From: Nepenthes gracilis
Lineage: Eukaryota; Streptophyta; Magnoliopsida; Caryophyllales; Nepenthaceae
Assembly: GCA_033239525.1 (NCBI GenBank)
Contig: BSYO01000023.1
Coordinates: 14,207,304-14,271,303, forward strand
Reading direction: 5' to 3'
Length of the DNA: 64,000 nt
Below, one piece after another: positions 691 through 60,267 of this stretch. The notes below the pieces were generated by a model that made no database searches, had not been told where the DNA came from, and saw nothing but the letters and a program-made list of their open reading frames with translations. Position 1 is the stretch's first letter; the number at the start of each line of letters is the position of its first letter. Made by a program: the position numbers and the translations under genes.

Positions 691-872
691 ATATAAATAA
701 ATGTATATTATATTATCTAAAATATTATAAAATATCTCCTACAGCTATTTTAGAATTTATTGTGATAAAATTGTCTAAAATTATGTTAAAATGATGTCCT
801 AATAAGCCGTGAAATAATATTCATAATTTATTAATGTTTTAATTTATTTTTAGTTTATATTAGATTTATATG

Positions 873-2022
873 TGATGGGTTAAATTCAAAAATGGGCCAA
901 GGACAGCAAAGCCCAATAGAAGGGGCATGGGTTTGACCAAGCATGAAGGCCCAAACCCCTCTATGAAACCCAAAGAATCCTAGTGCGTCGTCTACGTGGC
1001 GCCCTAGACGAACAACCAATCAGTGCGCCCTTACACCTTACAGACGACAGGCGCTAGTACAAAAAATGTAAGCCAATGGGAGAAAGGGTCAACGTTGCAA
1101 GCCACAACGCACCCCATCCTTGCAGCCACTTAACCAATCAATGTGCGGGCAACAGACCATGCGTTGTTCACACCCAACGCTAGTCCTCTTGTCTCCGCAA
1201 AATGACAACACGCATGGCGGGCGATTTAATCGACAAACCATTTGTTAGGAGTTCTGACTCCCAAAGCCTCCCAAAGGGAGTATATAAATGCCCTCTCCTA
1301 CTAAGGGAAGAAGAAATCTCAATCTTAAGCCCAAATAGTGACTAGAGATCAAGCATCTAATTATTCACCAAAAATTTTCAAATCAATGTGCGGGCAATAG
1401 ACCATGCGTTGTTCACACCCAACACTAGTCCTCTTGTCTCCGCAAAATGACAACTGACGCCGTTGGCGTGGCCGACGAATCCTGACAAACCATTTGTTAG
1501 GAGTTCTGGCTCCCAAAGCCTCCCAAAGGGAGTATATAAATGCCCTCTCTTACTAAGGGAAGAAGAAATCTCAATCTTAAGCCCAAATAGTGACTAGAGA
1601 TCAAGCATCTAATTATTCACCAAAAATTTTCAGGTCTCGAGGAGAAAGAATCGACTCTCTTTCCTCAAGTCACTGCTGCTTCCCGACGGAGTTAGTGAGC
1701 CATTTATAATAATGCAACTCTCGAAGCCCAGATTTCCAAACACATTCCATTTATACTCTCCTCATCCCTGTATCTTTGCATTATCGTTATATTTACTTCT
1801 AAGCGTGTATTCTTTCATTCATAGCAAAAGATTTTTGACTTGAGTATCGAAGTGTTTGCGGTGGGATAACCTTCCGTCGTTTTCTAATATCTTGTTTGTA
1901 ATTTGTAGTGTGTAGATTTCAGGTTAATAGTAACGAAAATCAAACCCGATCCAAATCGACCTGCAGCAGAAAATTAGAAGGCTTTCTAATTCATACTATA
2001 ACCAGAAGCCAGGTACGCATCA
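873..2022 (+). mobile_element. Solo LTR, Ty3/gypsy type
   Basis: The segment starts TGATGGG and ends GCATCA, the same terminal motifs as the LTRs of elements A and B. It is flanked by near-matching five-base duplications, atatg on the left and atttg on the right. It contains a TATA box (in two copies, see the tandem duplication entry), a conserved 'gtgggataac' block near 1860 and a 'gtgtgtagattt' block near 1908. These correspond to 'atgggataac' near 11252 and 'gtgtatagga' near 11297 in LTR A. No internal retrotransposon sequence follows on either side, so it is read as a solo LTR left by recombination between two LTRs. Confidence 0.7.
1136..1632 (+). repeat. Tandem duplication inside solo LTR, doubling its promoter
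   Basis: Copy a (1136-1380) and copy b (1381-1632) are nearly identical over about 245 bp, apart from a divergent GC-rich patch (about 1208-1235 against 1453-1485). Each copy contains the TATA box 'tatataaat' (1281-1289 and 1533-1541), followed by the same presumed transcript start and leader region. The copies differ at few positions elsewhere. Confidence 0.85.
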
Positions 2023-3945
2023 ATTTGATATATTACCAAAATAATTTAATTTTTTACTGTGATTTTATTCATTTACAAAAGTTTTTAGACTTCTACTTTC
2101 CTCTGTCGTTGGTTTTTTTTATATATTTTTTATTTTTGATAATTTTTTTAGAAAAATATGTTTTTTTTTCTATTAACATATAAGTAGTTTAATAAGTTAC
2201 TATTTATTAATAATTATTTATAAACTTTCAACCACTTAACATATAATAAAAATTATTAATTTATATTAATTTAATAATTCTTATAAAAACATTAACTCAA
2301 CTAAAAAATCAAAAATATAAATAAATTTGATTATAAATTAGATTAAAGTTTATTTATTTATTTATTTATTAAATACACATAATTATATTTCATATCTTAT
2401 AAAATAATATTTTTATATTCACATATTTTAAAAATAATTTTATATAAGTATCATTTAAAAAAATTGTAAAAAAAATTACTTTGTAACTAGTAAACAATTC
2501 TAAAAACTAATATAAATTTTGTTCAACACTGAAAAAATAAAAAAAGAAAATCTATTTTTTTAGTTTTCTAAATAAAAATAGATAAAATTGAACATATTTT
2601 TTTAAAAAAAATTATAAATATTTCTTAAAAAATAACTTTAATTTTTTTATTTACTGAACAGACTCTTATTTTCAAATTTACTTCTTTATGAATTACAATA
2701 TTAGGTACAAAATAATATAAAAATAAATAAATAAATTAGATATTATATTATTAAAAAATATCCACGGCAACTTTTAAATATAGTCCAGTTCTGAGTAATG
2801 ACATCTGAGAGTACGGATATCCTTATATATTTTAATACGTTTTTATTGATATTAATAGATAAATAAATATTATATTATTAAAATAATTATTTTTATGACT
2901 TATTTTTTATATTAAATTACTTTGGGAAGACCAAGTCATCCATGAAAATGATGTGTATCTTTTTGGTCAGCCAAGACCAAGTCAAGGATGATTTATGGGA
3001 ACGTTCGTTCAAGCTGGAATTATCCTCACTGTGAACATCTTTTAATATTTTTAAATTAAAAATATTTAAAAAATATATTTTTTAAAATTATTATTAGGCC
3101 ATTTTAGAATAATATAAAGTCCGTTTATCTATTTATAAAAAATAACACATAATATATTTTAGGCATCTTATTTGATATATTATATAATCTATTTATCTAT
3201 ATTATTAATCGGATATTAAATTAATATAAAATTAATCCAATGGCTAAAAAGAGAGAAGTAGGAAGAAACAGAAAATTGGAAAAATCAGGATCCCCATTCC
3301 CATATGTCGGCACATAAAGGATATTCCAAATATATTTATATAATATTATTTATCTATTTCTTTATATTAATAACAAATCATATCAAAAGAAAAAATCCAA
3401 AAACATCACTCTATTTAAATAATCTTACGCAAGTGCTATAAAATAATTAGGAAAAAATATTAAATTATTATTGTTTTAATTCTTTATTCTCAATTTTTAT
3501 TTTAGAATTTTTTTTATTAAAGTTAAGACGCTGACGCTGGAAATTTCTAAAGGTGTTAAAAGTCAGAGACTTTTTCTGGTAAAAATATTTATATCAAGAA
3601 TGTATCATGTCACGTTGAAAGTGACGAATAATTACTACAATTATTATTATTTTTAAAATAGATGATGAAGTTGAAAGAAAAAGCAAATGAAGCTGATAAA
3701 TCAAGGGGCTATAATATCCCTAATCATAGCCCACTTAAACAAAAATTATAAAAAAAAAAATATATAGCTATAATATAAATCTCTAGTTTCATTTTAATTT
3801 TTATTCTTTCTTCTTTATCTGTACCCCAAAAATCATAATTTTGACACAAATAAATATACAGATAAGTATATAAATAATAATACTCTAATTTATGCACTAA
3901 TTGTAATTTCAATTGTATCGACATTATCAAAAATCAAAATTTGAA

Positions 3946-8069: not shown

Positions 8070-9842
8070 CTACGGAGGCGGCGATGGCCCTTGTCTGTCT
8101 TGTGACTCCCCCACAAGGCTGTCCCGAGACTGCGCTGACCGGTTTGACAAGTTGATGAGATCCATAGGGAAGTCAGGATCAACCAACCGCATAATACGCC
8201 GACTAATGTTGATCTCTTCCCACAACCGTGACATCATCATATCCGCGACCTCGTGAGGACGAATGCGGAGGTTTAGATCGTTCTCCAGGGTAGCCATTTG
8301 CCCTGCGAGCTGATCGAGGTGCCCCTTGACCCGCTCGGTTTCCTCCTTCAGACGAGTGACCTCTGCTTTCAGGCTCTTATTCTCCGCCTCCATGCTCGCC
8401 AAGACAGACTCTCAGGGCAGCCACGTCCTCTCGATACTCCGCTCCCTGACCCTCCAGCTTAGAATCAAGTTAGGCAATCTCCATATCCCTATCAAAGATC
8501 ACCATGTCTCTCTGCCTAAGCGCCTTGGCAATTGCACCCGAGACCTTATCAGCCTGCACACACACAAAAAAAAAGTTAGAAAAGACAAACCTAAAGATAA
8601 GGCAGGTAACATAATTTATACCTCTCAAATTTTTCGAGTTGGTCTGTCTGGCCTGGCGCCCAAACCCAACGCAAAAGGCGGTGAGCAAGGAATGGGGACC
8701 ACGTGGGCAAGGCCGGCGGCGACCTCAGCCAAGAACTCCTCCAACGGTTCCTCTGGAGTATCCTCCATCCTGACTGACTCCTTAGGAACGGTGGGGGGGC
8801 TCCAAAATCGATTCCTGCTGCTCAGTCGGCAATTCTACAGCAGGTGATCCAATGGACAGCTCCTGCGACCCAAGCGCTCTGATAGATAGATCCGAAGTCA
8901 GCCCCGATGGCGCAAGCTGTGCGAGAACAACGCTGCCGCTGGCCCTGGCATTCAACTTGGCTTCGTAGGCCTCAAAAGTTAGCTCCACTTCAATCTCGGA
9001 AGTGGCACCTACACCCGTAAAACGCCCGGCGGAGAGATAGTCTGGTCCAGAGAACGACGAAGAAGGCGCCATCGAGACCGCCCTCTTTCGCCTTGGACTG
9101 GGAGGATTGACATCAGACGGGAGAGGACCTATGATAAAGCCCTTTTTCCTCTTCTTCCCCTGCAGGACATCCGGCGATGGGATTTTGAGTTCCTGGATGG
9201 GAGAGGGAGGCCCCCCACTTGGCCTTTTTAGCCTCAATACGGGAGATCAAGTGATCTCTCCGAAAATCTCCAAGGCTATCCACGATGAGTTTAACCAGCC
9301 AAGACAAGGACATCGTCTCAGCCTCCGAAAGCATCCCCCTATACACATCAGACACCTGGCCTCACTCCCTGGACAAGGGCCAGGACTCACCAATGCTAAT
9401 AAAGAATAACCAGTTCTTCCGTTTTTCAGGGAGTCATATATGATGGTACTTATCTAAAGACCGCTGCGTGGGGATAAAGAAATCCACTTCTCTCCCTGAT
9501 TAAGCTTAAAGAGCCCTCTAACTATCGACATCGTCAACAGCCTCAAATATTGACGGAGGTATATGTAGAGGGAATACAGATACCTGATGGCGTTAGCATG
9601 GAACTAAGTAGTGGGAACCTGAAGCACAGAAAAATCGACAATAACTCATCAGGAATTGGAAGACGGAGCCCACTCCTCAAATGGGCTTCATATACGGTCA
9701 CAAAACCCGTAGGTGGTAGGAAAGCCCTGTTGTCCTTCCCAGGAACACGAAAGGCAATCTCCTGTGAAATATTGTACTCCACATACAATACTTTTACATT
9801 GTTTTCTCTCAGGACGGAGGCAATTTCGGCGACGGAGGCCAT
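8070..9842 (-). pseudogene. Antisense ORF of element A (PF04195 domain plus coiled coil), broken
   Basis: The ATG at 9842 opens MASVAEIASVLREN, followed by the hallmark block VPGKDNRAF...[13 protein letters not shown] of the 'putative gypsy type' (transposase_28, PF04195) domain. A frameshift near 9640 breaks the frame. The domain continues in another frame (9410-9240, [12 protein letters not shown] then [33 protein letters not shown]), then a low-complexity Pro/Ser/Lys region (about 9230-8780). A 68-bp GT-AG intron (8554-8621) precedes a C-terminal coiled coil (about 8550-8280) and the end ...LINLSNRS at the 3' side. The ORF lies on the strand opposite to the LTR's own direction. The family occurs as an extra ORF in plant Ty3/gypsy elements of the Tat group; its function is unknown. 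Confidence 0.75.
8554..8621 (-). other. Spliceosomal-type intron in antisense ORF A
   Basis: On the minus strand the donor is GAGAG|GTATAA at 8622/8621. The acceptor is a long T/TG tract ending TGTGCAG|GCTGAT at 8554/8553. The same interval exists in B (donor at 18315/18316) with the acceptor AG changed to AA at 18378, and in C (donor 57852/57853). Coding-like sequence resumes on both sides in all three copies, which supports a real intron. Confidence 0.65.
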
Positions 9843-11386: not shown

Positions 11387-11387
11387 A

Positions 11388-12925
11388 TATTATATTATCT
11401 AAAATATTATAAAATATCTCCAACAGTTATTTTAGAATTTATTGTGATAAAATTGTATAAAATTATATTAAATGATACCATAATAAGTCGTGAAATAATA
11501 TTTGTATTTTATTAATGTTATAATTTATTTTTGGTTTATATTAGGTTGATATGTGATGAGTTCAGTTCAAAAATGGGCTAAAAACAGCAAAGTCCAATCA
11601 AAGGGGCACGGGTTCATCCAAGTAGGAAGTCCCAAACCCCTCTATGAAACCCAAAAAATCTTAATGCGCGGCCTATGGGATGCCCCAAACGAGCAACCAA
11701 TTAGCACATCCTTACAACCCGTAAAGACAATTGCAAGCGGTGAGCGCCAACTCAAAAAATATCAGCCAATGACTTAATTTTTTTATTTAAAAAATAGCCT
11801 TAATTTTTTTATTTACTGAACATGTTCTTAGTTTTAAATTTATTTTCTCATGAATTATAATATTATATACAAGATAATATAAAATTAAATAGATATATTA
11901 GATATCATATCATTAAAAAAATACCTATAATAACTTTCAAATATATTCCTATTCTTAGTAATGGTCTTTAAGAGTATGGATATCCTTATGTATTTTAATA
12001 TGTTTTTATTGATATTAATAGATAAAAAAATATTATATTATTAAAAAATATTTTTAAAATAATTATATTTATGACTTATTTTTTATATTAAATTACTTTG
12101 GGAAGACCAAGTCCTCCATGAAAATGATGTGTATTTTTTTGTCAGCGATGACCAAGTCAAGGATGATTTATGGGAACGTTCTTTCGAGCTGGAATTATCC
12201 TCACCGTGAACATCTTTTAATATTTTTAAATTAAAAATATTTAAAAAATATTTTTTTTAATTATTATTAAGCCATTTTAGAATAATATAGAGTCATTTTA
12301 TCTATTTATAAAAAATAATACACGGTCTCCTTTGATATATCTTTTAAATATTTTGATAAATAAATAATAAATCACATTAAAAAAAATCCAACAACATCGC
12401 TCCCATTAAATAATCTAATGCAGGTGCTATAAAATAATCAGAAAAAAATATTAAATTATTATTATTTTAATTTTTATTCTCAATTTTCATTTTAGAGTTT
12501 TTTTTTTATTAAAATTAAACACTGACGCTGGAAATTTCTAAAAGTGTTAAAAAGTCAGAGACTCTTTTTGGTAAAAATATTTATATCAAGAGTGCATCAC
12601 GTCACATCGAAAGTGACGAATAATCACTAAAATTATTATTAAAAATAAAATAGATGATAAAATTGATAAAAAAAAAAAAAAGCAAATTAAGCTGATAAAT
12701 CAAGGGGCTATATATACCTAATCATACGCCCACTTAAACTAAAATTAAAATAAAAAAAAAAGTATAAATCTCTCATGCCATTTTAATTTTTATTTTTCTT
12801 TTTCTATCTCGGTCCAAAAAATAATAATTTTAACACAAATAGATATATAAGTAGATATACAAATAATAATACTCTAATTTATACGCTAACCGTAAACTCA
12901 ATACTATCAAAATTATCAAAAATAG
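11388..12925 (+). repeat. Segmental duplication, copy 2
   Basis: Matches 696-3945 in the same order and orientation. It retains the first 215 bp or so of the solo LTR (from TGATGAG at 11553), then jumps near 11770-11790 to sequence corresponding to about 2618. This removes the rest of the LTR and its right flank. A second, smaller deletion lies near 12330, against 3150-3370 of copy 1. No gene is seen. The left border coincides with the end of LTR A. Confidence 0.8.
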
Positions 12926-14034: not shown

Positions 14035-17000
14035 CTAGACAATGGCAAGTTCAAAGAGACCAGATGTTATTTAAGAAGCTTGCTATTACTAGGGTTCTAA
14101 CGCCTGATTTTCTTTATAAGATTAATGACATTATAGTCATATGCATTAAGCAAATATGGTGAATAATTATTTAACAAAAAATTTTGAGAAAAATTTGAAT
14201 TTGATGGAAATTAAGCCAACATCAAAATGACGCCTGTCTCCGTGCTTCTACGTGTTTGAGATTGTTAGAGACATTTGTCTTATTTGCATATTCCGTGACC
14301 ATATGTATTATTTTATTGATGTCGGGTTGTGGGTGGTCGGTTTAAAATTCATTAAAATTCATTGGTCCGCCCTCCACGCGCTCGAGCACCGTCCAAGGAC
14401 CGCCCGCTCGCCTGGTGCCCGCTTGCCGCTCGAGCACATAATCCGAGAATGGGGCTGCTTGATGCGTACTCATTGCGCTCGAGCCTAAAAACCAGAATAG
14501 GGGCCGCTTGATGCATGCTCTCTGGCCGCTCGAGCCGAAATCCCAGAATGGGGGCCGCTCGCTGCGTGCTCGATCCCGGCTCGAGCGGCCGCCCAACGGG
14601 CAGATTTTTGAACGCGTTTTTGGCTCCTCTATAAATATTGGCTTATGTTTTTTCAAACCCGAAGGATTCAAAACTGAATATTTTCGTGCCTCCTTTGAGG
14701 AGAAAGGCTCTTATGCTCCATTGTGATTGTTCCTTTTGAGAAAACCAAAAGCTACAATTTTGAGTTCCATGTTCTAAAGGTTTTCTCATTACTTTTTCTA
14801 TTTCTTTCACCATTAAAGCTTTCATCCTTCTACCTTCGTTGGAGACGATGGTGCGTTGAAGAAGGAGACCCGATCTTGGTTGGCAATTCAAGTGGCACGA
14901 GAGGGAAGATTGGCTTGAAGACGGAAGGTGTCGGTTCGTTGCAGCGGGCAAATCCAAGGAGTTCCTTGGTAGGGATCACGCGTCGGGAGTAAGTCGGCTA
15001 GGTTAGCGTTATTTTTGGGCTGTAAGTTGATTTTCATAGTGCATTGCTTCCCTGGCCGTTGAAGCTCGGAGTGTTTTTCTCGATACTGTGGGTATCGAGT
15101 TTTCACTTCGTCACCAAAAATCGGATCTTTATTATTGTTATTCATTATTATATATATATTGTGCATGCTTATACATCTAGAGATAAATATCCCTTACGTG
15201 TATCGGATATTTAATTTAATTGATTTATTTTATTGCTTCCGCTATACTTATAACGGGGTCGAAACACGGTAGCACCGAAACGTGCTTTTTCAGAGATAAT
15301 AGTTATGCACCTACACGACACCTATGAGGCACTCATGGATAGTTTAGGCAAATTATGCGGTGCCTAAGATACACCTATTGCAGCGCTCATGCACAATTGA
15401 GGCAGAATGCTGGAGTCTGAGGTACACCTAATACAGTGCTTCTACGAGCCTATGCGTCTAGGCGACGTCTGATGCGCACCTAACTAGCACTTATGCACCG
15501 ATTTGGGTATAAAAGGATTTTCACCAATTTCTCTATCATTTCGCGCAGAAAATGAGATTTTAAAGCCTTTTCAACTTAGATATACTAAATATTGATGTGT
15601 ACTTAGATTCGACTTCGAACAGATTCATATTTGTTTTATTGTTTGGATCCGACTCCGTTAACCGAGTCTGAATCCTGCACACCACTATAGTAAACAAGAG
15701 GTCAGGTATAGGCGGGATGTTGTCCGACCGAAAACACTCCGACGCTCAAGTCAGTAACAAGCCTTCGAACTTTAAGAAGGTGAACTGGTAAGTAAAAAGA
15801 GAGAGAACGAGAATGAGATTGGTAGGAGTGTTGGCCTGTAGATGTAGAGACGTCTCGTGACTCATTGAGAGTTTGGTTTCTTGACTCGATATTCGCAAGG
15901 AACGAGTGGAGCTATGTCCTGAAAGCGTTATAGCTTAGAAGGACCGTCCTCAGGGAGCGGGTGCAATCTCTGTAATCTGGAGGCTTGGAGTGGGATTAGC
16001 AAAGTAAGCGTTTGAGAGAAAATATGCTCAAGCACTGCGTTGTATTTTACGTCTGTGTTCGTGATTCAGATCGTGTCCCTCCAGAGTGGAGACTATAGGG
16101 TTATATAGATGATGGGAAGTGTGACATTCCTTGGTTAGGAAGGCGTGATCTCTTGCCTGGTGTTGAGCGGCCTTCCTTGAGTAGGTAGGCTTGACTGGCG
16201 TGATCTAATGGGATCGTTTCCTTTTTAAGTGAGTAACGAGTCTCCAAATTATCTGCCTTCCTTTTGTGTTTGTGTGACTATTAGACTCCATTGTTGGTAA
16301 GGAGAGAAAATCTGGCGCCTTTCTCATGGGGAGGACGCTGAATCTGTTGATACCTTTTTAGAGGAGATTGACTTCAATGAAAGCGTGAAATCACGGCAAG
16401 GACCATTACTTGTCGTGTACAGGAACGCATGCCAAACTGGGCTTGGCCCGTATTAGGTTTTATGTATTTTCACGGCCTGCTGCTACAGTACTTCCGGTTA
16501 ACAGAAATGCTGACCGTTTTGAGGAAGCGCGTTGGCCGTCTGGTTGGCGCGCTAGGCGGTCAACGCTTGCGTTGACCATCTAAAGCGCATTTGAACTTTT
16601 CTAGACTTTGGGCCGTTTTTCTTATTGAGTCTGTTAGCTACAGGCCTACCCATCACTAGCCTCTCATGCTGGTGGTCAGGATTCTGGCCTCCGGCATGTT
16701 TATGATGGGATGTGCTTGTTTTTGTTGGCGGAATCATTGTCCATCTGAAGAGGAGCCTTTAGTACTTCCAAAACGTTGACCGAATTTGTTGACCGTTCTT
16801 GGGAAGTTTCTGGGCAACTTGGAGAAGGAAGGGTTGGTCATTAGTCGTCCTGTCAGAAAAGCGTGCCATGTGTCTCTATGCGGCACGGTCAAGATCCCGG
16901 TATTTAATGAGCCGGAGGATCTGATTCGACAGCCTTCTTTTAGAAAAACGACACGCGGCGGTAATGATGGCGCAAGCTTTTGAGACAGTTTTGTGTTCAC

Positions 17001-20000
17001 ACGGGTTTTTAAACCGCTTGTTTGTTTCATTTTGAATTTCCTATGCCTTCCTTGTTGCTTCGTCTTCTTTATTCCGTTTGAGAAGAAAAAAACCCTAACT
17101 CTGACCATGGCTTCCATCGCCGACATTGCCTTCGTCTTGAGAGAAAATGACGTGAAAGTCTTGTACGTTGAGTACAACATTCCACAAGAGATCGGCTTCC
17201 GCGTTCCAGGGAAGGACGACAGAGCTTTTTTGGCGCCCACGGGCTTCATGACCGTCTATGAAGCCCAATTAAGGAGTGGGCTCCGCCTTCCAGTCCCCGA
17301 CGAGCTGATATCGATTTTTCGGGCGCTTTAGGTCCCTATTGCTCAGTTTCATGCCAACGCTGTCAAGTACCTGTCCTCCATTTGCATTTTCCTTCGTCAA
17401 CACTTGAGGCTGTTGACGATGTCAATGGTTAGGGGGATCTTTAAGATCAATCAGGGAGCGGACTGGTTTTCTTTATCCCCCCACAGCGGTTTCAAGATAA
17501 GCACCACCATATACGACTCCCTTAAGAACTGGAAGAACCGGTTCTTTTTTGTTAATGTGGGAGAGTCCTGGCCCTTGCCAAAGGAGTGGGGTCAAGTGCC
17601 TGAGGTGTATACGGGGCCGCCTTCGGAGGCGGAGACGGCGTCCCTAGAGTGGCTGGTTAAGCCGGTGGAGAAGAATCTAGGAGACTTTCGGTGGGACCAC
17701 TTGATTTCTCATGTGGAGGCAAAAAAGGCCAAGTGGGGGCCTTCGTCTCCAGTCCAGAAATTGAAAATCCCGTTGCCGAAGGTTTTGCAGAGAAAGAAGA
17801 GGAAGAAGGGTTTTATCATTAGTCCCCGCCCGTCTGATGCAAGTCATCCCAGTCCAAGGCAAAAGAAGGCGGCCTCGGTGGCGCCTTCTTCGTTGTCGTC
17901 AGGGCCTGACTACCTCTTTGCTGGGCGTTTTGCGGGAGTTGGCACCGCATCTGGGATAGAAGTGGAGCTGGCCCTTAAGGGTTATGAGGCCAGGTTGAGC
18001 GGCGGTGTTGTTCTGGCGTAGCCTGCGTCGTCAGGGTCGGCTCGGGAGCCATCCATCAAGGTGCCTGGGCTGTAGGAGCCGTCAGTTGGATCGCCTGTTG
18101 TGGTAATTCCGGCGGAGGAGCAGGAGCAGATTTTGGAGCCCCCCATCGTTCCCAGAGAACCAGCCAGGGCGGAGGATACTCTAGAGGATCCCATGACGAA
18201 GTTCATGGCTGAGGTCGCCACCAGCCTTGCTGACGTGCGTTCCCTTCCTGGCTCACCGCCTTTTGTGTCGGAACTCGGTGCGAAGCCAGATAGGCCAGCA
18301 CGAAGAATTTGGGAAGTATAAATTCTATTGCCCGCCTTATCTTTTGATTTGCCTTTTCTAACCCCCTTTTTTGTGCAAGCTGACAAAGTATCGAGCACAG
18401 TTGCTAAAGCGCTCAGTCAGAGAGACATGGTGATCTCCGACAGGGACAGGGAGATCGCCTAGCTCGATGCTAAGCTGGTGGCTCTGGGGGTGGAGTACCG
18501 AGAGGACGCGGCTGCCTTGGAGTATGTTCTGGCAGGCATGGATGCGGAGAACTTGAGCTTAAAAGCAGAGGTCGCCCGTTTGAAGGAGGAGAACGAACGT
18601 GCTAAAGGGCGCCTTGATCAACTTGTTGGGCAAATGGCTACCCTAGAGAATGACCTGAGCCTCCACATCCGTCCCCACGAGGTTCAGGGCATGATGTTGG
18701 CGTGGTTGTGGGAAGTGATCAACATTAGCCGGTGTATTGTGCGACTGGTTGATCATAACTTCCCTGTGGATCTTATCAATTTGTCTAATCGTCGGATATA
18801 GCATCGCGGCTTGACCTCGTGGGGAGCCTCGAGATGCATAAGGGCCCCGCATTTTGCCTCCATAGCTTTTGTGATTGTAATTTTTTTATACATTTTTTTT
18901 TTTTGAATTTGATGATGTATCTTACCATTTAGCAATAATACAAGTAGCTTCGTGCATGTCACACGCTCTTACCTTTGCATTTTGCTTCTTTGCCTTTCTT
19001 AGTGGCCAATTGGGCAGGATTCCTACGAGTTGGCTGCCCGCCTTTCTTTTGGGGCGTTCATGGCATTTTCTAGGCCGTCGCGTATGTTAAGCCGGCTTAG
19101 AATTCACCTATGAGTAAAGCTTGACTGCGCTGCCCAGGTGTAGACTTGGGCGGCCTGCTTTGCTAGAGCGTTTTGCTCCAGTCGACCATCGTTGGCTGAT
19201 CACGCTATCTCTTTATGAATGAGGTTGTCGCGTGTGCTGCGTTAGCCCCCTAAGATTTTTTCGACCGCTAATGGGCCACTTGGATGACCAATGTTTAGAT
19301 ACAACCACTCATGGGCCGCCCGAATGACCAGGGATTAAATACGACCACTCATGAACTGCCTGGATAACCAGGGTTTATATACGACCGCTCATGGGCCGCC
19401 TGGATGACTAGGGTTTAGTAACGAGAGGGTGAAGACCCTCCTGACTTAGGGGCAGCCTAGGTCATTTCGAACCTGCAATGAAAACCACATATATATGCAC
19501 ACGCAACATGCTAAGGAAACACTTGTTTTACTAATTGAATCGTGCACACAAATGACCACATATAATTATGCAAAATACATACCTAGGTCTCTACTGGAAG
19601 TAGCGTTTGAGGTGGATCGCGTTCCACATTCGTGGGACCAACTTTTTGTCCTAGTTACGGAGCTTGTATGTCCCATTTCGCACGACGGCGGAGACTAAAA
19701 AAGGCCCTTCCTAATTTGGGTAGATCTTGTTCCGGCCGACCACCTTTACTGTAGCCTGATACTCCGTAAGATTAAGTCTCTGACATCGAACTGCTTCGCT
19801 TTTACTTTCTTGTTGTAGTAGCGGGCGACTCGATGTTGGTAGGCTGCAATCCGTATTTTAGCGGCATCGTAGGCTTCTTTTAGTAAGTTTAGGTGTTCCC
19901 AGATTTTCTGGGAGTTACCCTGCGGGTCGAAAGATTCCACCCTAAGACTTGGAAGCCCGATTTCGACCAGGATCACCACTTCAGTCATGTAACAGAGGTT

Positions 20001-23000
20001 GAAGGGTGTCTCACGCGTTTGTCTATTTGGAGTTGTTCGGTAAGACCAAAGGATTGAGGCGAGTTCGTCTACCCAGGAGCCTCCTGCGTCTTCCAGCTTG
20101 GTCTTGAGCCTGTGGAGTAGCGTTCGATTCGTGACCTCCACCTGTCAATTCGTTTGGGGGTATGCCACCGAAGTGTGGACCAGCCTAATCCCAAAGCTGG
20201 TGCAATACTTGATGTAGCGTTTCTCCAAGAATTGGATTCCGTTGTCAATCACAATGACCTCTGGAACGCCAAATCTACTAATGATGTTCTGGCGGACGAA
20301 CACAAGTGCGTTGTGTTCTGTGATTTTGGCCAGCGGGACGGCTCGACCCACTTTGTGAAGTAGTCGATATCCGCTATGATGAATTTTCTTTACCCGGTTG
20401 CAATGGAAAATGGGCCAAAAATATCGAGCCCCTATTGCGCGAACGGTCGCGGCGCCCGAAGGGATTTCAGCTTGGCGGACTGCTGCTGGCGAAGGTTGCC
20501 ATGAAGCTGGCAGCTTACGCACCTTTTTACAAACTCGAGTGCATCCTTTTTCATCGAGGGCCAATAGTAGCACTACCGCATGATCTTGAATGCTAGGTTT
20601 TTGCCGCCCACGTGCGATCCGTAAATCCCAAGGTGCACTTCGTTCAAGACGTAGTTCGCCTCTTCTGGGGTTAGGCAACAGAGGTACAGAGTCGAGTAAC
20701 CGCGGCGATACAGCCGCTCGTCGACTATAGTGTACCAGCCGGCCGTTCTCTTTATCCACCTGGCCTCTTCTACGTCTTCAGGTAACGTTTAGTCCGCCAG
20801 ATACCTTAGGTAGAGTGTCGTCCAATTTTTCGTCTCGGAGACCTGCTTTGCCTCCTGTCCCTCTATACTGGGACGTTCAGGACAGCCCTCATGTTCTTCG
20901 AATACTGTTCTGCATTTTCGGCAGCCACTGCTCTTGCCAGCTGATCAGCCTTCTAGTTTTCAATTCTAAGAACATGAACCAAGGTTAGATTGTCAAAGTT
21001 GCGGACGGCCTCCCTTGTCCTGGCCAAGTATTTGGCCATATGCAGGTTGTTTGCCTAGAAGTTCCTATTAACCTGGTTGACGATCAGTTCGGAGTCGTTG
21101 TAAACAGCTAGCCGCTTGGCTAGCACTCCTTTGCTAATTTTAACCCGACTAGCAGGGCTTCATATTCGGCAACATTGTTGGTGGTCGGGAAGTCGAGTCT
21201 AAGCGAGTATTTCACCTCAAACCCGTCAGGAGTCGTAAGGACCACCCCTGCTCCACTGCCTGTATTTGTGGATGATCTATCCACGTAGAGTACCCATTCT
21301 GGAGCCTTCATGCACTGTTCCGCATTCTTTGAGGGCTACTTTTCGAGAAACGGGGTCGTGGTTTAATCAATGAAGTAGGCCAGAGCCTGTACCCTTATGG
21401 CCGGCCTAGGTCTGAACTCAAGTCGAACTCGTCCAATTCGATAGCCCATTTTACCAGTCGCCCAGAAATATTAGGTTTCTGGAGTATGTTCTTTAGAGGC
21501 TGGTAAGTGAGAACTACGATGCGGTGCATTTGAAAGTAAGGCCTTATTTTTCGCGCAGAGAATATGAGAGCTAATGCCAACTTTTCTGTGCGCGGGTAGC
21601 GCGTCTCTGGGTCGGTCAGTGTTTTGCTCACATAGTAGACCGGCCGTTGGGTATCGGAGTCCTAGTGTACAAGGACGAAGTTGAGGGACACCTCTGATAC
21701 TGCCAAGTAGAAGTACAGCTCTTCGCCGACCTTGGGTGATGTTGGTAACGGCGGGCTAGCCAGGTACTGCTTCAACTCATTGAAGGCCGCCTAGCAATCT
21801 GCCGTCCATTGGAATTCGTTTGATTTTATTCCCCTCAAAGCCTTAAAAAATGGCTGATACTTCTCACCAGACTTCGCTAGGAAGCGAGACAAGATTGTCA
21901 ACCGTCCAGTCAGTCGCTGGACATCTTGACGCTTCGTGGGGGAGCAATGTCCGCAAGGGCCTTGATTTTCTTTGGGTTTGCCTCGATCCCTCGTTGGGAG
22001 ACAATAAAACCTAAGAATTTTTCCGAAGCTACTCCGAAGATACACTTAGCCGAATTCAACTTCATTTGATACTCACGGAGCACCTCAAACGACTACGCCA
22101 GATCGCAGATATGGTCGCCTGTAACTCTGCTTTTGACAAGCATGTCGTCAACATAGACTTCCATATTGCAGCCGATCTATTTTTTGAATATTTTATTTAC
22201 CAACCCCTGGTAGGTGGCTCCTGCGTTCTTTAGTTCAAAGGACATCACCTTATAGGAGTAGGTCCTTTGGCCTGTTATAAACGAGGTATACTCTTCGTCC
22301 TCCGAACTCATCCGGATCTGGTTACAACCTGAATAGGCATCCATGAAACTCAAGGCTCATACTCGGACGTCGAGTCTATCAGCAGGTCAATCCTGGGTAA
22401 AGGAAAGCTGTCCTTTGGGTAGACTTTGTTAACATCGGTGAAATCGACTCACATTCTCTACTTCCCGTTACTCTTCTTTACCAAGACTACGTTGGAGGGT
22501 CAATCAGGGTATTGAACCTCCCTAATGAATCCAGCATCCAGTAATTTCTTTACTTTCTCCCGGATGGCGATCAACTTTTTCACTGAATGGTTTCTCCGCT
22601 TCTGCTTGACGGGTTTTTGCTCCGAGTCGAGGTCCAACTTGTGGACAATTACCCGGTCCGAAATCCCAGACATATCAGCGGAAGTCCATGCAAAGATGTC
22701 AGCATTCCGTCGCAGGAATGTGATCAGTTCTTTGCATAGCGCACCGGTGAGTGAGCCACTAGTTCATATGCACCTTTCTGGATCTTCCAGATTCAGTGGG
22801 ACTAAGTCGGTTGCCTCACCGAATTGCGCTGGTTGCAAGGTTGTCTCGTCTCGATGGTCAAGTTCTTTGATGCTTTGGGTGCTGTCGTTAGAAGCGATTT
22901 GGGACATGTAGCATGTCCGTCCAGTGACTTGGTTCCTCAGTACTTCGCCCACACTGTATGGCGTTAGAGATTTCATTTTAAATTGTGGTATTGAAGTGAC

Positions 23001-26000
23001 TGCCCTGAACGCTGTTAGGCACGGCCGGCCCAGTGTTGCGTTGTATTCAGAGGATAATTCAATTACCAAGAAGGTAAGTGTATAACTCGACGTTCTCGGG
23101 TACGTTCCTAGGGTAACTTCTAGACGGATCGTCCCTTGGACGGGCACCAATTCGTTGTCAAGGCCATACAAGGGGCTTTCTGCAGATTTTAATTGACTCT
23201 TTTTTAAACCAAGTTTAAAAAACGCATCAAGATAAAGCAAATTACGAGAACTTTCATTATCAATAAATATTCGTTTCATCTAGTAGTAGCGAGTGCAGAT
23301 ATAACAAGGGAGTCTGCATAGGGGGAAACTACATGTGCTAGGTTATTGTCACTAAAACTGATGACGTTGTCAGTAGTCTGTTGTTTCTTCCTCCCTGCGT
23401 GCTAGTCCCTGTTGTCTGTTGGATTCTTAATTGGCCGGGTGGTGATCATGTTAACCACTCCTATGACAACCCGGTTTCGTGGTGGAGAAGACCCTGATCC
23501 TTCTTCGCCGGCGTTGCCAGAGCTCTGACGAGGGCCTTTGACGAACCCGGTGAGATGGCCCCTTCTGATCAGTTCCTCAATCACCCGCAGTGCCCGGGAG
23601 ATCAATAAAAATCGCAGTACTTGACTGGATTTCCTCCCTCCGCCTTCTTAAGTGGTTTTTGGCAACTTAAGAAATTTCTCCCCACGGATCTGCATAAGGA
23701 TGTTTGAGCGCATGTCAGTCAAAGATGTTAGGCTGATGGGCCCGTAGTCCTTGAGCTCTGGTGGCCCAATCCTATGGGGCTTCTGGTGGGAGTGACTACC
23801 ACCGTTGTGTTTCCTCTTTCCTTCAGGCAAGAAAGAGCGAGGCTGTTCAGGCCGATCGGGATGTTTTGTCTCGTTGGCCTCTTTTACTGCCGCGTAGGCC
23901 CTGGTGATAGACTCTGCCTCCCGAAATGTCTGCGGATTCTTATGTGCCAGGTGCCGAAAGAATTCTCCATGCGCTAGCGCTGAAATGAAACTGCCAAACT
24001 TCATTTCTTCCGTGAGTCGAGGAATCCGCCTAACTTCTGCCACGAAACAATCTAGGAACTTTCGCGGGTTCTCTTCATGCTTCTGCTTAATGTGCGACAG
24101 ATGCCACGGCTATTTTTCCTTCCTGCGGCTGGAGGCATATTGGGACAATAAGAGATCTATAAGCTCCTGAAAACTTCAGATCGAGTCTGCGGGGAGATGA
24201 TGGAACCAAATGCGTGTGTCCCCTTTTAAAGTGAGCGGGAAGCAGCGACACATGGTTGTGTCCTCCAACCCTTGTAGACCCAAATGGGTACGAAAGTGAG
24301 CGAGATGATCGACGGGATCTGCACTCCCATCGTAAGAGTTAAGGGCTGGCATTTTAAACTTCACCAACATGGGATGATTCAAGATCTCCGCTGTGAAGGG
24401 AGATCTGTCGATGTTGGCTGCGTGCTCGTCGTCTTTGAAGACGCAGTTCCATATCTTCTCCAGCTTCGGATCTGTTGGAACGGCGTTAGCAGATCTTTTG
24501 GAGTTGAGATATGCCCTCAACTCCGTTCTCTCCCTGGCTTGTTCAGTAGCCGGGCAGCTGCTATCTCTGGCAGATCTAGCGGCCCAAGAGGCTCCCTCCT
24601 AAGCCTGGGGCCTAGATTTTACCCAGGAGTATCTAGAGTTCCTTCGTTCCGGACTTTCCTCCGAGGTAGAGCTGGTTCCTCGCTCCTCACGCCTTAAACA
24701 GCTTTGGGCATGTGAGGATGCTGGTGCGAGAGCGCTGGTTAGCCTTCTGGTCCGTCGAGTTGGAACTTTCTTTCTCTGGCCTCCTCGTCTGGACGTCGGT
24801 GCTGGGGCCACCGCCGGTCAGCCACCAGCTGTGCTTGCTCCTGGTGGGAGTAAAGTACCTAGAGCATTATATCTGTATTGTGCATATACTCCGTCAGGTT
24901 TTGGAAAAAAGATGTCGGAATTTCACTGGCTACCCCGTTGACCACGGCGCCAATGGAGTGGTCCTAGTTTGGTAAGACTACGTTTTGGGCTGGCTCGCTT
25001 GCTTGCGCCCTTGTATTCACAATTTTGTTTAAAGGTGTTGATCAAAGAGAGCTTCTAGGAAACACAGTTGACTTTTTGTAAGCGCTTTCCACAGACAGCG
25101 CCAATGATGCATACCTAGATCCGATTTCGAACAGATTCGGATTTGCTTAATTTTTTGAATTTGGCTCTGTTCACCGAGTCTAAATTCTGTACACCACTAC
25201 AGTAAACAAGAGGTCAGGTGTTGGCAGAATGTTATCCCACCGAAAATACTCCGATACTTAAGTTAGTAACAAGCCTTCAAACTTTAAGAAGGTGAATTGG
25301 AAAGTAAAAAGAGAGAGAGTGAGAATGAGATTGGTAGGAGTGTTGGCCTTTAGATGTAGAGACGTCCTGTGACTCGTTGAGAGTTTGATTTTCCGACTCG
25401 ATGTTCGCAAGAAACGAGTGGGAGCTATGTCCTGAAAGCGTGATAGCTTAGAAGGACTGTCCTCAGGGAGCGGGCGAAATCTCTGTAATCTGAAGGCTTG
25501 GAGTGGGATTGGCAAGGTAAGCGTTTGAGAGAGTATGTTCAAGCACTGCGTTGTATTTTGGGTCTATGTTCGTGATGCAGATCGTGTCCCTCCAAAGTAG
25601 AGACTTTGGGGTTATATAGACAGTGGGAAGTGCGACATTCCTTGGCTAAAAAGGCATGATTCCTTGCCTGGTGTTGGGCGGCCTTCCTTAAGTAGGTAAG
25701 CTTGATTGGCGTGATCTGATGGGATCATTTCCTTTTTGAGCGAGTAACGGGTCTCTAAATTATTTGCCTTTCTTTTGTATTTTTGTGACCGTTAGACTCC
25801 ATTGTTGGCAAGGAGAGAGAATATGGCACCTTCTTCATGAGGAGGGCGCTGAATTTGATTATACCTTTTTAGAGGAAATTGACTTCAAGGAAAGCGTGAA
25901 ATAAGGGAAAGGGCCGTTGCTTGTCGTGTACAGGAACACCTGCCAAACTGGGTCTGGCCAGTATTAGGTTTTATGTCTTTTCGCGGCCTGCTACTATAGT

Positions 26001-26775
26001 ACCTTCGGTTAACAGAAATGGTGACCGTCTTAAGGGAGCTCGTTGGCCGTCTCGTTGGCGCGCCGGGCGGTCAACAGAAATATTTTTATTTTTTTTAATT
26101 AATAATTTTTTTCCTTTAAATTTTTTATAAAACAATCAATCCCTAACATTGTGTTTAGTTGCAGGAATTGAGAGGGAATAAAATTCCTCCTATTCTCCCG
26201 TTCGATTAGTGGTAGAATGAGAATTGTTATTCCCACATAATAATAATAATAATATTATTATTTGTTTCATTATTATTATTATTATTTCATATTATTATTA
26301 TTACAACATATTATTATTATTATTATTATTATTATTATGTATTATTATTACATATCATTATTATATTTATTATTATTATTTATTAAGTATTATTATTATT
26401 ATTATGTTTTGTTGCAGAAATTGAGGAAGAATAGAATTCCTATTCCCGCGGGAATAGAAATTTTTCCGTTTGGTTAGTGATAGGATGAAAATTATTATTT
26501 CCCAAAAATTATTATTCAAACAAATATCCCCCGGGAATTATTATTCCCACAAATGTGGGAATAACAATTCCCACATAATAATAATAATATTATTATTTGT
26601 TTTTTATTATTATTATTATTATTATTGTTATTATTATTATTATTGTTATGTTTGGTTGTAGGAATTGAGGAAGAATAAAATTTCTATTCCCGCGAGAATA
26701 GGAATTCTCCCATTTGGTTAGTGATAGAATAGAAATTGTTATTCCCACCACTTATATGGAAATATAGAATCCCAC

Positions 26776-50586: not shown

Positions 50587-51153
50587 TTATCTCTCTCTGT
50601 CACACAGCAACAACCTTTTTCCCTCCTCGTCGCCGTCGCCGCCGCCGCCGACCTCTCTTCTCGCATTACGAGTAGCCATCTCAAGCCCGGAAAGCCCCTT
50701 TGCCCTCGAGGCTTCGGCCTCCCAATCGGTCCTCACCAACACAACATACAAAATCCAAAATGCACATGCGACCTGGGCAGACAGCAGACCGTACCACAGC
50801 CCGCTGAACCCGACCTTGCGCCCGAATGCCAAGCCAACCGCCACCGGCGTGCCCACCAGGTAAAACGAGCCCAGGTTGATGCGGGCCCCGACGGCAGGCC
50901 TGGCCGTGCCACGGAGGATGCCACAGCCGGTGGTTTGCGGACAGTTGCCGAGCTCACACAGGCCCATGATCGGCATAACGGAGGACACCAACGACCTGAG
51001 CATGTGATCGGTGGTGAAGAGCCCTCCCCACCTCTCTCGGAAGATCACGGTCCACGCCACATTCACGATCCCGACTAAGAACGCACAGCTCAACGCGACC
51101 ATTGCTGCTAGCCTTGCTTTGTACGGCTTTCCGGCTCCGAGCTCATTCCCCAC
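50587..51153 (-). CDS. DTX54: MATE gene exon 3
   Basis: Begins after ATTTTATGCAG with VGNELGAG and ends [12 protein letters not shown] and TGA. It carries the second half of the C-terminal MATE bundle. An in-frame ATG at 51171 lies in the intron and is not used. Confidence 0.88.
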
Positions 51154-54100
51154 CTGCATAAAATTGGTCACTTGTTACTAGCCTCGTGGTCATGACTCTG
51201 ATTACCCAGTACATAAGCAAGTTTATTAAAATCAATGCTTACAAATTTGAAATAAGAAAATAAAAAACGATAAAAAAAGAATAATCAGTCTAATAAAAAC
51301 AAGGGAATTATAAATAATAGTAAATAAAATTATTGAAATTTTCTATGTGAAATTTTAAAAGTATCTCGACTGCATTCATTGGAATACACGAAATTTACTC
51401 ACCGAATGTACAGATTAACAATCCATCTCAGGAGATGGAACTTCATCCTCAAACTTCCACCTCAAACGGCTGCTACAAGGACCAGCTAGCACATTTATTT
51501 ACAACTTATTTTTGTTCTCCACATTCACATTCTGTTATACCCATTCACTAACACATGTTCTATTACTATTTTTGTTATTGCTTCTATTTTGTCGTTCAAT
51601 CCACTCGGCCTATTACTGTATAAAGCAAGTACCATTCAAGGTAAATGGACACCAATATACTACGCTTCTCAATTTTCTCTGACTTCCTCTTTTCTGATTT
51701 TTCTCTGCCCTTTCTCTCAGACTCATTTTCTTTTTTTTCTCTCCCCCTCTGCGCTCTCTTCTCTCTGTTCTCCCGTTTCTTCTCTTCCAGAACTCCCCTT
51801 TCCTCAGTTCTCACCACACTTCACTGACGATATTTATTGTGCGACCATAAAACACGTATCGAGTATTAATGCGTGCACAAGTTCAAGAGGAGAATCCACT
51901 CCAAAAGGACGTCCTGTGAGGGGAGAGTTCCCCAAAATTATTAGTTGAAAGTTTTGCCTCAAATTTTTCATGGGGAGACAGATCATTCCTCCCCTTTCAA
52001 CAATCGCAGACCTCGGCGGCTGCACTCGACAACTTTCACTCTGCAACGTTTCACTCCGTTCAGGCGTATTGGCAGCATGTCAGTCTCTCCGCAAGTAGTC
52101 TTCTCCGATAACTTTTTCTGATCAAAACCCTCTGTAAGTAATCTTTTTCAGATCGGGGTCGATTTAAATAAAAACACCATTGATGCATGTACAAATATAA
52201 AAAAAATCCATTCCAAAAAGTATCTTATGGAAAAAGAGTCCCAAACTTAAAATTAAAAATTTTATCTCAAATTTTTTAATATAAAACACGTATAATGAGG
52301 TCCTATAAATTTTACATTCATACGCTTCAGACAAACCTCATAAAGTCTCTCAATCACGCAAACCACCAGCAGCCTACCTGAAATCCCACTCATAATGATA
52401 ATCACCGAAAATAAAAAAAATCAATAAAATTCTGATAAGATGCTTTCGCCTCCTGGACTGCCACGTAGGTTCATCTATAGTGTTCAAAAAGAAAATATTG
52501 ATCAAAATTCAAAAATAAAAAAAAAAAAAATTCAGCTAAGATAATATGAAAATTCTGAAATTAACATTTATTTAAAGTATTACATGTTCATCAATCAATT
52601 ACTTAAAATATAATTAATTCAATTTAATTTTCAAAACGGCGGAGGGCGGCTTACCTTCGCAGAAACGCAGCCAGCCAAAGCCATGGGGACGGTGTACATG
52701 AGGCTGGTGGTCTGAATCAGAATCCCCGTCGCTGCCACACATAGCGTTGGGTTCGGTAGGTACCCGGCCAGCACCGTCACTATCTCGTACCACCACCACT
52801 CTAAACATATCCCTAGACAGCTCGGCACCGCCAGCTTCAGCAACTCCATCACCGCACCACCATCACCGCCACCGACCACCACGGTCCACCTCATGTTGCA
52901 CCGCCCGCTCACATACACGTAACCCGCCATCAAGACCACCATGTTGATGTTTGTCACCACCGACGCCACCGCCACCCCAGGCACTCCCAACCCCATCGCC
53001 ACCACCAGCACATAATTCAAGGGCACATGGAAGGCCACGGCTATGAGCGAGCAGTACATCATCGGCTTCGTAACCCGCTGTGACCTTAGATAAACCCTCA
53101 GTGGCTGCAACAACGTGTTTGTCAGTAGGTCAGGTAAGCAGTAGATACAGTACGTCGCTGCCATCGCTGTGACCTCCCTGTCTTGGCCTAAGAAGATCAT
53201 GATGTTTTCTAGATTGACCCACAAGATGCTGATGGGTATGATGGCGATCAAGAGGATAAAGATCATCCGGTGGAGAGAGAGAGAGAGGAGTTCCCAGTTT
53301 TTGTTGCCGTAGGCTTGGCTGCAGACGGGTTCAAGCCCTGAGGCTAGGCCTACAAGAACAGAGTAGCCAGTGATATTGGTGAAGCCGATTGAGAGGGCTC
53401 CGCCAGCTAGCTCTAAGCTTCCGAGTCTTCCCAAAAATAGGACTGAGACGACTGCTCTGATGTACACCAAGCAGTTCATTGTTGTTATTGGTAAAACCAT
53501 AGCCCACAGCTCTTTAAATTCTTCTACCACCTGTTGGAAAGAAGCACACGGTAAGAAAGAAACCAAAATGAGGAAACAAGAGAGCCCTGTTATTTCATCC
53601 CCTGAATAGAAGGGAGTTTGTATTTGAAAAAAAAAAAGGTCTATTGAAGTAGAGAAGCCAAATGGGAAATTTCAATGAGTAAAAATGAGAAAATTCTATT
53701 TTTTGGGATATAGAAGGTTTATTTAGAATATGAAAGGGAAGAAGAAAGAGACCCAAGTGATAAAACATGACGATTGGTGAAAGAAAATAGAAAAGGATGC
53801 CCTGTTTTTTATCCTTTTTTAAAATCTGGGATCGAGAAGAAGCCCATAGGAGAAAACAAGTAAAACAGTCCAAGGAAATGGGGGAAATGCGTGTTTTTTT
53901 GGCAATAGTGCCTGAGGTTGACAAGGTTGTTTGCAAGAAGAAAATTATTGAGGAACGCAAAACAGAAAGCCGAAGAAGTTCCCCGTTTCTTCTCCAAACA
54001 GTACGTGAGTTGGAGAAAGGTGTTGGTAAGAAGAAAACTACTCCATAGAAGTAGAAACACGAGAGAAAACACTACAAGGGGAGAGAGTTACAGAAATGGG

Positions 54101-56627: not shown

Positions 56628-58340
56628 ATGGCTCTGACCTCCATTGCAGATATTTCTTCTGTTCTTAGAGAGAACGACATCAAAAAGCTGTGCATTGAAT
56701 TTAACATCCAAAAAGACATCGCGTGGAGGGTTCCGAATAAAGACAACAGGGCCTTTTCTCCACCGGCAGGACACGTGACGGTGTATGAGGCCCACCTGAG
56801 GAGCGGCCTCCGTCTTCCTCTTCTAGACGACTTACAGTCGATCCTCCAGGCTCTGCGCGTTCCCATCGCCCAACTCCACGCCAATACTGTACGGTATATT
56901 TGTACTTTCTATATCTTTCTCTGTAAGCATTCTTGGAGGCTAACGATGTCGATGGTGAAGGGGCTGTTTAAGATAAATCAGGGAGGAAAGTGGATTTTCC
57001 TGGTTCCACGTAGTGGCCTAAAGGTCAACACGGCCATCTACGACTCACTGAAGAATTGGAAGAACCGGTTCTTCTTCGTGAGTGTGACTGAGACCTGGCC
57101 CCTGGCAAAGAATTGGGGTCAAGTGCCAAATGTTTATACGGGGATGCCGTCTGTGGCGGAGACGGCGTCCTTGGAGTGGCTGACCAAACTGGTCAAAGCC
57201 CATCTCTCTGACTTCAAGAGAGATTTCTTGGTCTCTAGGGCAGAGACCAAGGAGGTGAACTGAGGACCGCCTTCCTTTGTTCAGAAGCCAGGGCTTTGCC
57301 CAGCGGTCGGTCATGATGCGGGAGGAGGACTCCGGGTACGATCATCCATCCCCAGGCCCGATGAATGACTTCATCGGCCCTATGCCCAAGAGGATGACTG
57401 TGGAGACGCCCTCATCATCTTCTTTGGGGCCAAACTACATCGTTGCCGGGATTTGCAGCGGTCCTAACAGCACCACCAGGATGGAGAAGGCGTTCTAGGA
57501 CATGGCAGCAGGCGAGGCATTATCGTTATACCAGCGCGGCTGCGCTACGGGTGGTTCCTCGATCAGTAGGAGAAGATATCACTGCATCTATCGAGCGGCC
57601 CGCCAGGTCGAAGAGCCATCGGTTGGCTCTCGGTTATGCGGCGGTAGTTGGACCCATCGGTGATTGATCGGAACATCCCTTTGATCCAAAGGAGCCGCCA
57701 CCGCCGCCATGGATGATATCGATGAAGGGCTCTGGATGACATCCTAGATGAGGCCACCGCTAGCCCTGCTCACGAGGGTTCTACCTCTTCTCACCGGCCC
57801 ACGGCAGGACTTGGAGGCCAGGCCAGATAGGCTCGCATGGAGGATCTGGTAGGTATAATTTTCTGTGATACTTTCTGCCTAACTTCTCCTTTTTCTGTTG
57901 TGGCAAGGGTGATCAATCAGAGGGACCATATGATCTCCAACAGAGAGGCGGAGATTGCCTGGCTTGACGCAAAGCTGGCGGCGTCGGGGGCGGAGCACCG
58001 GCTGGATGTTGCCGCATTGCAGACAGTTCTGGCCGACATAGAGGCCGAGAACACAAGCCTAAAGGAGAAGAACGCCCGCCTAAGAGAGGAGAATGAGCGG
58101 GTCAATAAACGCCTCAACCATCTCGCCAAGCATACGTCAACCTTGGAGAACTAGTTGAGTATTCGGATACGCCCTCACAAGGTTGAGCAGATGATGCTGT
58201 CGCGGTTGTGGGAGGGGGTCAATATATATCGGCGTATCGTGAGGATTATTGACCCTAACTTCCCGGTGGACCTGCTTAACACGTCAAACAGGTCCGCCCA
58301 GAACCGTGAGAGTCTCGTGAGGGAGCCACGGGATGGTTAG
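56628..58340 (+). pseudogene. Antisense ORF of element C (PF04195 domain plus coiled coil)
   Basis: The ATG at 56628 follows a telo-box (AAACCCTAA, 56606-56614). The longest intact stretch of the three copies, 56628-57263, covers the whole PF04195-type domain: [95 protein letters not shown]. It ends at a TGA (57261) where the other copies continue. The linker is broken by stops. The intron donor TAG|GTATAA is at 57852/57853. The coiled coil (57915-58151, AENTSLKEKNARLREENER) ends at a TAG (58152), and the tail reads to 58340. A canonical AATAAA lies at 58417. It cannot make the full protein. Confidence 0.8.
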
Positions 58341-58787: not shown

Positions 58788-59026
58788 TGACCACTAACGG
58801 GCCACTTGATTGACCAACATTTAGATTCGACCACCTATGGGCCGCCTGGATGACCAAGATTTAATACGACCATTAATGGGCCACTCGGATGATCAAGGTT
58901 CATACTAGACCGCTTATGGACCACTTGGATGACCAGGGTTTAAGTACAACCGCCAATGGACCGCTCGGATGATCGAGGTTCATATTCGACTACTTATGGG
59001 CCGCCTGGATGACCAAGGTTTAGTAA
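58788..59026 (+). repeat. 40-bp tandem array, copy C (6 units)
   Basis: Units start at 58788, 58828, 58867, 58907, 58947 and 58987, each about 40 bp with the core 'gggccgcctggatgaccaag'. The position between antisense ORF and integrase is the same as in element B, but with six units instead of four. Confidence 0.9.
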
Positions 59027-59539: not shown

Positions 59540-60267
59540 TCATGGGTTAAACGATTCCACCCTAAGACTTAGAAGCCCGATTTCGACCGAAATTACCGTT
59601 TCAGTCCCGTAGTAGATATTGAAGGGTGTCTCGTGCGTTGGTTCTTTTGGGGTTGTCCGGTAAGACCAGAGAATTGAGGGGAACTCGTCTACCCAGGATC
59701 CCCCTGCGTCTTCTAGCTTGATCTTTAATTCATGGAGTAGCGTTCGGTTCGTGACCTCCACCTGTCCATTCGCTTGGGGGTATGCCACCGAAGTGTGGAC
59801 TAACTTGATACTAAGGCTGGCGCAATTTTTGGTGAAGCGTTTTCCCGAGAACTGGGTCCCGTTGTTGATCACGACGACCTCTGGGATGCCAAATTTGCAA
59901 ATAATATTCTGGCGAAGGAATTCAAGAGCGTTGTGCTCTGTTATTTTTGCCAGTGGGATGACTTCGACCCACTTTGTGAAATAGTCGATGATTATAATGA
60001 TGAACTTTCTTTGACCCGTGGCAATGAAAATGGGTTGAGAATATCGAGCTCCCATTGCGCGAAAGGCTAAGGGGCCTGAAGTGACTTCAGGTCAACGAAC
60101 GGTTGATGGTGAAGGTTACTGTGAAGCTGGCAGCTTTCACACTTCTTCACAAATTCGAGCGCATCATTTTTCATTGAGGGCCAGTAGTAGCCATGCCGCA
60201 TGATCTTGAAGGTTAAGTTTTTTCCACCAACATGTGCTCCGCAAATCCTGATGTGCACTTCTTCCAA
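59540..60267 (-). pseudogene. Integrase of element C, active-site mutant
   Basis: The zinc-binding part (60267-60067) has HIRICGAHVGG and KKCESCQLH. The core (60055-59540) has [20 protein letters not shown] with the first Asp. The second motif reads VINNGTQF, so the second catalytic Asp is Asn (codon 59866-59864; B keeps Asp here). [20 protein letters not shown] retains the Glu. A stop separates the two parts. It is catalytically dead by its sequence. Confidence 0.85.

Follow-up and report, generated by a model that had tools for sequence, protein, structure and literature searches.

The window, by which we mean the whole 64,000-nt stretch of DNA that was analysed, is plant-like and abundant in nested retroelements, and it contains one homologous gene in three decayed Ty3/gypsy copies that we designate A, B and C (Table 1). 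The initial annotation had placed homologous genes at 8070-9842 on the minus strand (A), 17107-18801 (B) and 56628-58340 (C), and alignment of the three stretches bears this out. None of the three copies in the window is intact: copy A has five frame changes, as read from its translation, in addition to the interval discussed below, and the gene frame of copy B contains six stops, counting the terminal one. Copies A and B are 75% identical over 3.75 kb, and copy C is ~35% diverged from both in the open part of exon 1. The stretches 58336-58621 and 62900-63153 are 78% identical. A candidate fourth copy at the second of these (62.9-63.2 kb) was rejected, as none of 13 proteins from the family of the antisense gene matches there at E<=1e-3.

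In copies B and C the gene lies on the plus strand and the pol pieces lie on the minus strand, so the gene is antisense to pol. In element B, for which both LTRs were found, the decayed antisense gene sits between pol and the 3' LTR, as is characteristic of Retand elements, and in element C it is on the expected side of pol. No pol piece was found for copy A, where the gene is on the minus strand, and its antisense state is inferred from homology with B and C; the earlier claim that the gene runs opposite to gag-pol is thus observed directly for two copies and extended by homology to the third. Beyond the inner edge of the 5' LTR of element B is a TTGGCGC... stretch that we take to be primer-binding-site-like. 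Element B, the only copy measured, has LTRs of 972 and 971 bp and an internal region of 8,540 bp, sizes that fall within the Retand ranges (LTR 315-1,194 bp, internal region 7,380-12,869 bp) given in excerpts of PMC11963269.

Other features of the window include a MATE transporter gene in two pieces (50587-53566, minus strand; PF01554, E 3.3e-18 and 8.6e-43) and a head-to-tail duplication of ~250 bases with 93% identity at 1136-1632. A repeat pair, 705-3934 and 11387-12923, with pieces that are 82-87% identical, flanks copy A and perhaps represents the LTRs of a further element.

Table 1. Features of the three copies and their elements (positions are those of the window).
Feature	Position	Strand	Remarks
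Exon 2, copy A	8070..8553	-	up to stop; third-position excess
Proposed intron, copy A	8554..8621	-	68 nt, GT-AG, phase 0
Exon 1, copy A	8622..9842	-	frameshifted; third-position excess
3' LTR, element B	15593..16564	-	86.6% identity to 25105-26075 over 973 columns; element runs on minus strand
Exon 1, copy B	17107..18315	+	third-position excess vs A, p=8.2e-9; best proteins are N. gracilis models
Proposed intron, copy B	18316..18378	+	63 nt; GT retained, homologous acceptor is CAA
Exon 2 (coiled-coil-like), copy B	18379..18801	+	stop 18799-18801; third-position excess vs A, p=6.5e-5
Tandem array, element B	19262..19417		40-base unit, 3.9 copies; between pol and antisense gene
Integrase core piece, element B pol	20148..20777	-	PF00665, E 4.7e-6, 27.2 bits, under cutoff 32.6
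RNase H piece, element B pol	21398..21661	-	PF17917, E 2.1e-16, over cutoff
5' LTR, element B	25105..26075	-	matches 15593-16564; TTGGCGC... beyond inner edge
Exon 1, copy C	56628..57852	+	single frame only to ~57263; weak PF04195; third-position excess of 56634-57260 vs A and B
Intron remains, copy C	57853..57907	+	GTATAA donor and CTAAC retained, acceptor region altered; right edge is nearest AG
Exon 2, copy C	57908..58340	+	start missing; third-position excess of 57909-58337 vs A and B
Tandem array, element C	58789..59022		40/80-base unit; place matching that of B array
Integrase core piece, element C pol	59543..60091	-	PF00665, E 9.7e-8, 32.6 bits, at cutoff

The interval between the two proposed exons

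The proposed intron is best defined in copy A, where the initial annotation had put it at 8554-8621 and where its boundaries prove exact. Specifically, exon 1 closes in phase 0 before a GTATAA that starts at 8621. The interval is 68 nt long and ends with ...TGTGCAG at 8554, after which exon 2 is again in phase 0. A GTATAA donor followed by a branch-site-like CTAAC is aligned at one homologous place in all three copies. GTATAA occurs only once in each gene, and CTAAC occurs four times in A, once in B and four times in C. The earlier claim that all three copies have a GT-AG intron at a shared place holds for the donor side, but the acceptor side is complete in copy A only. In copy B the donor starts at 18316, and 63 nt later the homologous boundary has CAA as the acceptor, with an AG one base beyond it that is out of frame. 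Copy C retains the donor at 57853 and the CTAAC; its sequence has gaps at the acceptor and the exon 2 start, and its nearest AG is also out of frame.

The interval is also T-rich, with a T fraction of 0.53 in A, 0.46 in B and 0.47 in C (counted to the nearest AG) relative to gene means of 0.26, 0.25 and 0.23, respectively. Among windows of the same size along each gene (totals of 1706 for A, 1633 for B and 1659 for C), none that lies clear of the interval is as T-rich as it. Note that a loose intron pattern, GTA..CTRAY..AG spanning 55-200 nt, is common in these genes, with 38 combinations in A, 13 in B and 32 in C; the proposed donor starts 13, 9 and 3 of these, respectively. Thus, the motif counts only through its homologous position.

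When the frame of exon 1 is carried into the interval it reads V and then a stop, a TAA one codon past the donor, in each of the three copies. This bears on the possibility that the interval is ordinary coding sequence and that its stop and length change are products of decay. The 63-nt interval of copy B is a multiple of three with both exons in one frame, as ordinary coding sequence would be, and the odd length of the interval in A could have come from later slippage in A's GT run. The interval does not exceed the exons in A/B divergence (0.19 versus 0.22-0.23), and its A/B differences by codon position (3/2/7, p=0.066), although not significant, lean the coding way and against an intron. 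Set against this are a T-richness unlike the rest of the gene and the presence of the same TAA at the same codon in all three copies despite the ~35% divergence of C, from which the TAA is probably ancestral. A protein read through the interval would then need either parallel stops or an ancestor that was already broken, and we regard uninterrupted coding as highly improbable.

Coding constraint, start codons and protein labels

Differences among the copies show an excess at third codon positions in all six exon comparisons (p 1.1e-10 to 1.3e-4). For exon 1, the differences at positions 1/2/3 are 79/60/139 between A and B (p=8.2e-9), and the open part of C (56634-57260) gives 65/39/117 against A (p=1.4e-9) and 60/38/118 against B (p=1.1e-10). 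For exon 2, they are 22/21/49 for A/B (p=6.5e-5), 40/29/66 for C/B (p=1.3e-4) and 43/27/72 for C/A (p=1.4e-5). Control comparisons exhibit no third-position excess, whether between LTRs (B3/B5, 41/48/38, p=0.82; B3/A, 80/82/72, p=0.81) or in the 5' flank (B/A, 36/44/37, p=0.65). A point against the two-exon gene is an in-frame stop at the same exon 2 codon in A (near 8470, minus strand) and B (about 18460, plus strand), which either was inherited or arose twice at a single mutable position.

An alternative is that there are two separate antisense ORFs, a TRP28-like one that ends at the V-stop and a coiled-coil-like one that is translated on its own, with no splicing. The in-frame stop in all three copies is congruent with such an arrangement, as are Met codons within exon 2 that are common to A and B, one at QRDM and another ~35 residues further in; excerpts of PMC11963269 likewise treat antisense TRP28 and Smc ORFs as plain ORFs. 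Against a separate ORF, A, B, C and the N. gracilis protein models P0002, P0003 and P0006 have no shared Met near the exon 2 start. In addition, A and B residues match from the acceptor onward, upstream of the shared Mets, and the donor, the branch-like site and the T-rich tract are all located at the gap. We therefore consider two unspliced ORFs unlikely, though less so than uninterrupted coding. An intron is the probable and best explanation of what the aligned copies have in common, namely the conserved donor, the branch-like site, the T-rich tract, the phase 0 boundaries in A and the coding constraint on both sides.

The N. gracilis models themselves were given little weight, as they are predictions, one of them (P0002) runs into integrase antisense, and its junction was aligned to the interval. 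In P0002 the end of exon 1 is separated from QRD by 13 residues, which is the spliced spacing in A and B, versus 34 residues when B is read through. The P0002 residues just past the junction resemble exon 2 only loosely, and the aligner put them on the interval instead. From residue 455 onward P0002 matches the antisense of integrase (20154-20473 and 59774-60099, plus strand), so proteins annotated in Nepenthes may in some cases be chimeras with retroelement antisense sequence. In P0003 the break comes after the same E that ends exon 1, but the exon 2 start is then skipped. In P0006, exon 1 residues are joined directly to 'ADRVAS', the exon 2 start; this junction could come either from splicing at the acceptor or from a deletion in the genome and is not counted as evidence. 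The aligner's placement of P0002, together with the loose-pattern counts and the Mets common to A and B, slightly lowers our confidence in the antisense intron.

Labels for the encoded protein come from weak matches. The PF04195 domain named in the initial annotation was recovered, but only below threshold, with matches in two of the 11 proteins scanned at E<=1 (best E 0.0021), a score of 18.5 bits in copy C against a gathering cutoff of 26.2, and no match in the open pieces of A and B. Six conserved TRP28 residues are given in excerpts of PMC11963269 (G21, P25, L34, P46, N47 and F55). By eye, ungapped from the G, copy C has five of these at exact spacing, with A replacing P46, and copy B has three. 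The coiled-coil-like label of exon 2 derives from N. gracilis members that weakly match Pfam families of coiled coils, including bZIP_1, as in one member of protein alignment A5 (E 0.0012). Three protein searches, in the first two of which only the 7993 and 7994 candidates with the most words in common were scored, gave 3, 13 and 2 matches to a total of 13 different proteins, all from Nepenthes gracilis, so that Nepenthes or a close relative may be the source of the window. One scan each of viral contigs and of genome contigs with P0001 gave no relative, nor did a Protein Data Bank sequence search with P0002 at E<=0.1. A structure model of P0001 from an 11-row alignment had a mean pLDDT of 35 and was unusable.

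Passage through retrotransposition and known antisense genes

LTR distances provide a relative date for these insertions. The K2P distance within B's own LTR pair is 0.148, and the A versus B LTR distances are 0.307 and 0.288, about twice as large; the A/B gene and flanks give 0.27-0.29. The larger A/B distance indicates that B inserted after the A/B split, and hence that the interval has passed through at least one retrotransposition with its RNA intermediate. Through gene conversion between its LTRs, B could seem younger than it is; the gap is about twofold. This dating supports the earlier proposal that the intron survived retrotransposition.

Signals that would suit a separate antisense transcript flank the gene. 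AAACCCTAA, a telo-box, is located shortly upstream of the ATG in B and C, whereas copy A has an altered version. An AATAAT/AATAAA lies downstream of the stop in all three copies, starting 75 (A), 135 (B) and 78 (C) bases into the stretches read, which begin at the stop in B and C and eleven bases before it in A. These upstream and downstream motifs fit a separate antisense transcript and do not prove one.

Overall, we consider it likely from the aligned sequences that A, B and C carry a TRP28-like/coiled-coil-like two-exon antisense gene with a phase 0 spliceosomal intron that was copied via sense RNA. The three would be old members of a single Ty3/gypsy family of Retand-like (Tat-group) type, which carries an accessory gene antisense to the element between pol and the 3' LTR. 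Exon 1 would code for the TRP28-like N-terminal part with its basic stretches and exon 2 for the coiled-coil-like part, joined by an intron of ~63-68 nt. Transcription would start at an antisense promoter of the gene's own and the host would splice the message, with an unspliced message meeting a stop one codon into the intron. Sense genomic RNA would contain the intron only as its reverse complement and would not have it spliced out, such that reverse transcription would carry the intron into every new insertion. The protein may have a nuclear regulatory role.

A variant of this model accepts the intron and holds that its retention or splicing is itself used to make a short TRP28 form and a long form, in which case invisibility of the strand to splicing would explain its persistence only in part. 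A short form with a fixed end would result from the stop one codon into the interval, and HTLV-1 HBZ transcripts are alternatively spliced according to excerpts of PMC1459196. Passage in sense RNA already suffices to explain retention, and we judge a functional two-form role to be very doubtful.

Retroelements are expected to lose introns, and an intron on the antisense strand would, if the two-exon gene is real, explain how a reverse-transcribing element keeps one. A conserved antisense intron would also mean that the antisense message really is made and spliced, and that surveys of Retand antisense genes based on single ORFs can miss part of the protein. Such antisense ORFs are themselves already known, and the intron is possibly the sole new part. 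Excerpts of the Retand survey (Vicient 2025, PMC11963269) document them well, with antisense TRP28 ORFs in 97% of Retand clusters and, in representative elements, 104 antisense ORFs of which 57 have TRP28, along with 11 Smc domains. As in the present copies, the antisense gene of Retand elements is between pol and the 3' LTR, and tandem arrays are found there. The ORFs of that survey, identified with ORF Finder, are plain ORFs in its excerpts, whereas the present gene is split by a probable intron. A term search for 'intron' found no occurrence in PMC11963269 or PMC7264820; 'splic' occurs in the former only in the cited title of another paper and, in excerpts of the latter, with regard to sense env transcripts, retroviruses and a call to seek antisense and spliced transcripts. 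Excerpts of PMC5408684 do not mention introns. Among the papers listed by literature searches, as judged from titles and the opening of abstracts, none describes an intron in an antisense ORF of a plant element. It is conceivable, although we hold this only tentatively, that what surveys list as different antisense ORFs of Retand elements, one with TRP28 and one with a coiled-coil/Smc part, is a single spliced gene of two exons throughout the flowering plants; its old intron would have been retained by lying on the strand from which retrotransposition cannot splice it.

Known systems resemble this gene in different respects. HBZ of HTLV-1 is a zipper protein. The HBZ message is antisense, spliced and polyadenylated, with translation mostly from an exon in the 3' LTR (Cavanagh 2006, PMC1459196, in excerpt), and as a spliced antisense gene of an LTR retroelement it is a precedent for the present gene, likened by layout and not by sequence; it differs in belonging to an animal retrovirus and in where translation mostly starts. 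Grande gene23, as cited in excerpts of PMC7264820 and PMC11963269, is likewise an antisense accessory gene, with its own promoter and a nuclear protein. Plant LTR elements are generally intron-free, with Ogre and EVADE as notable exceptions in excerpts of a 2025 review (PMC12786077). The gag-pol intron of Ogre is spliced (cited in excerpts of PMC6317226 and PMC12786077), and sunflower elements have spliced sense isoforms in excerpts of PMC7730604, in which the word antisense is not used. Ogre and the sunflower elements thus show introns in plant LTR retrotransposons, as proposed here, but according to these excerpts their introns are in gag-pol transcripts and are spliced out of some of these transcripts only. 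The present one would lie on the antisense strand, as a natural counterpart, in mirror image, to the intron-based retrotransposition reporter.
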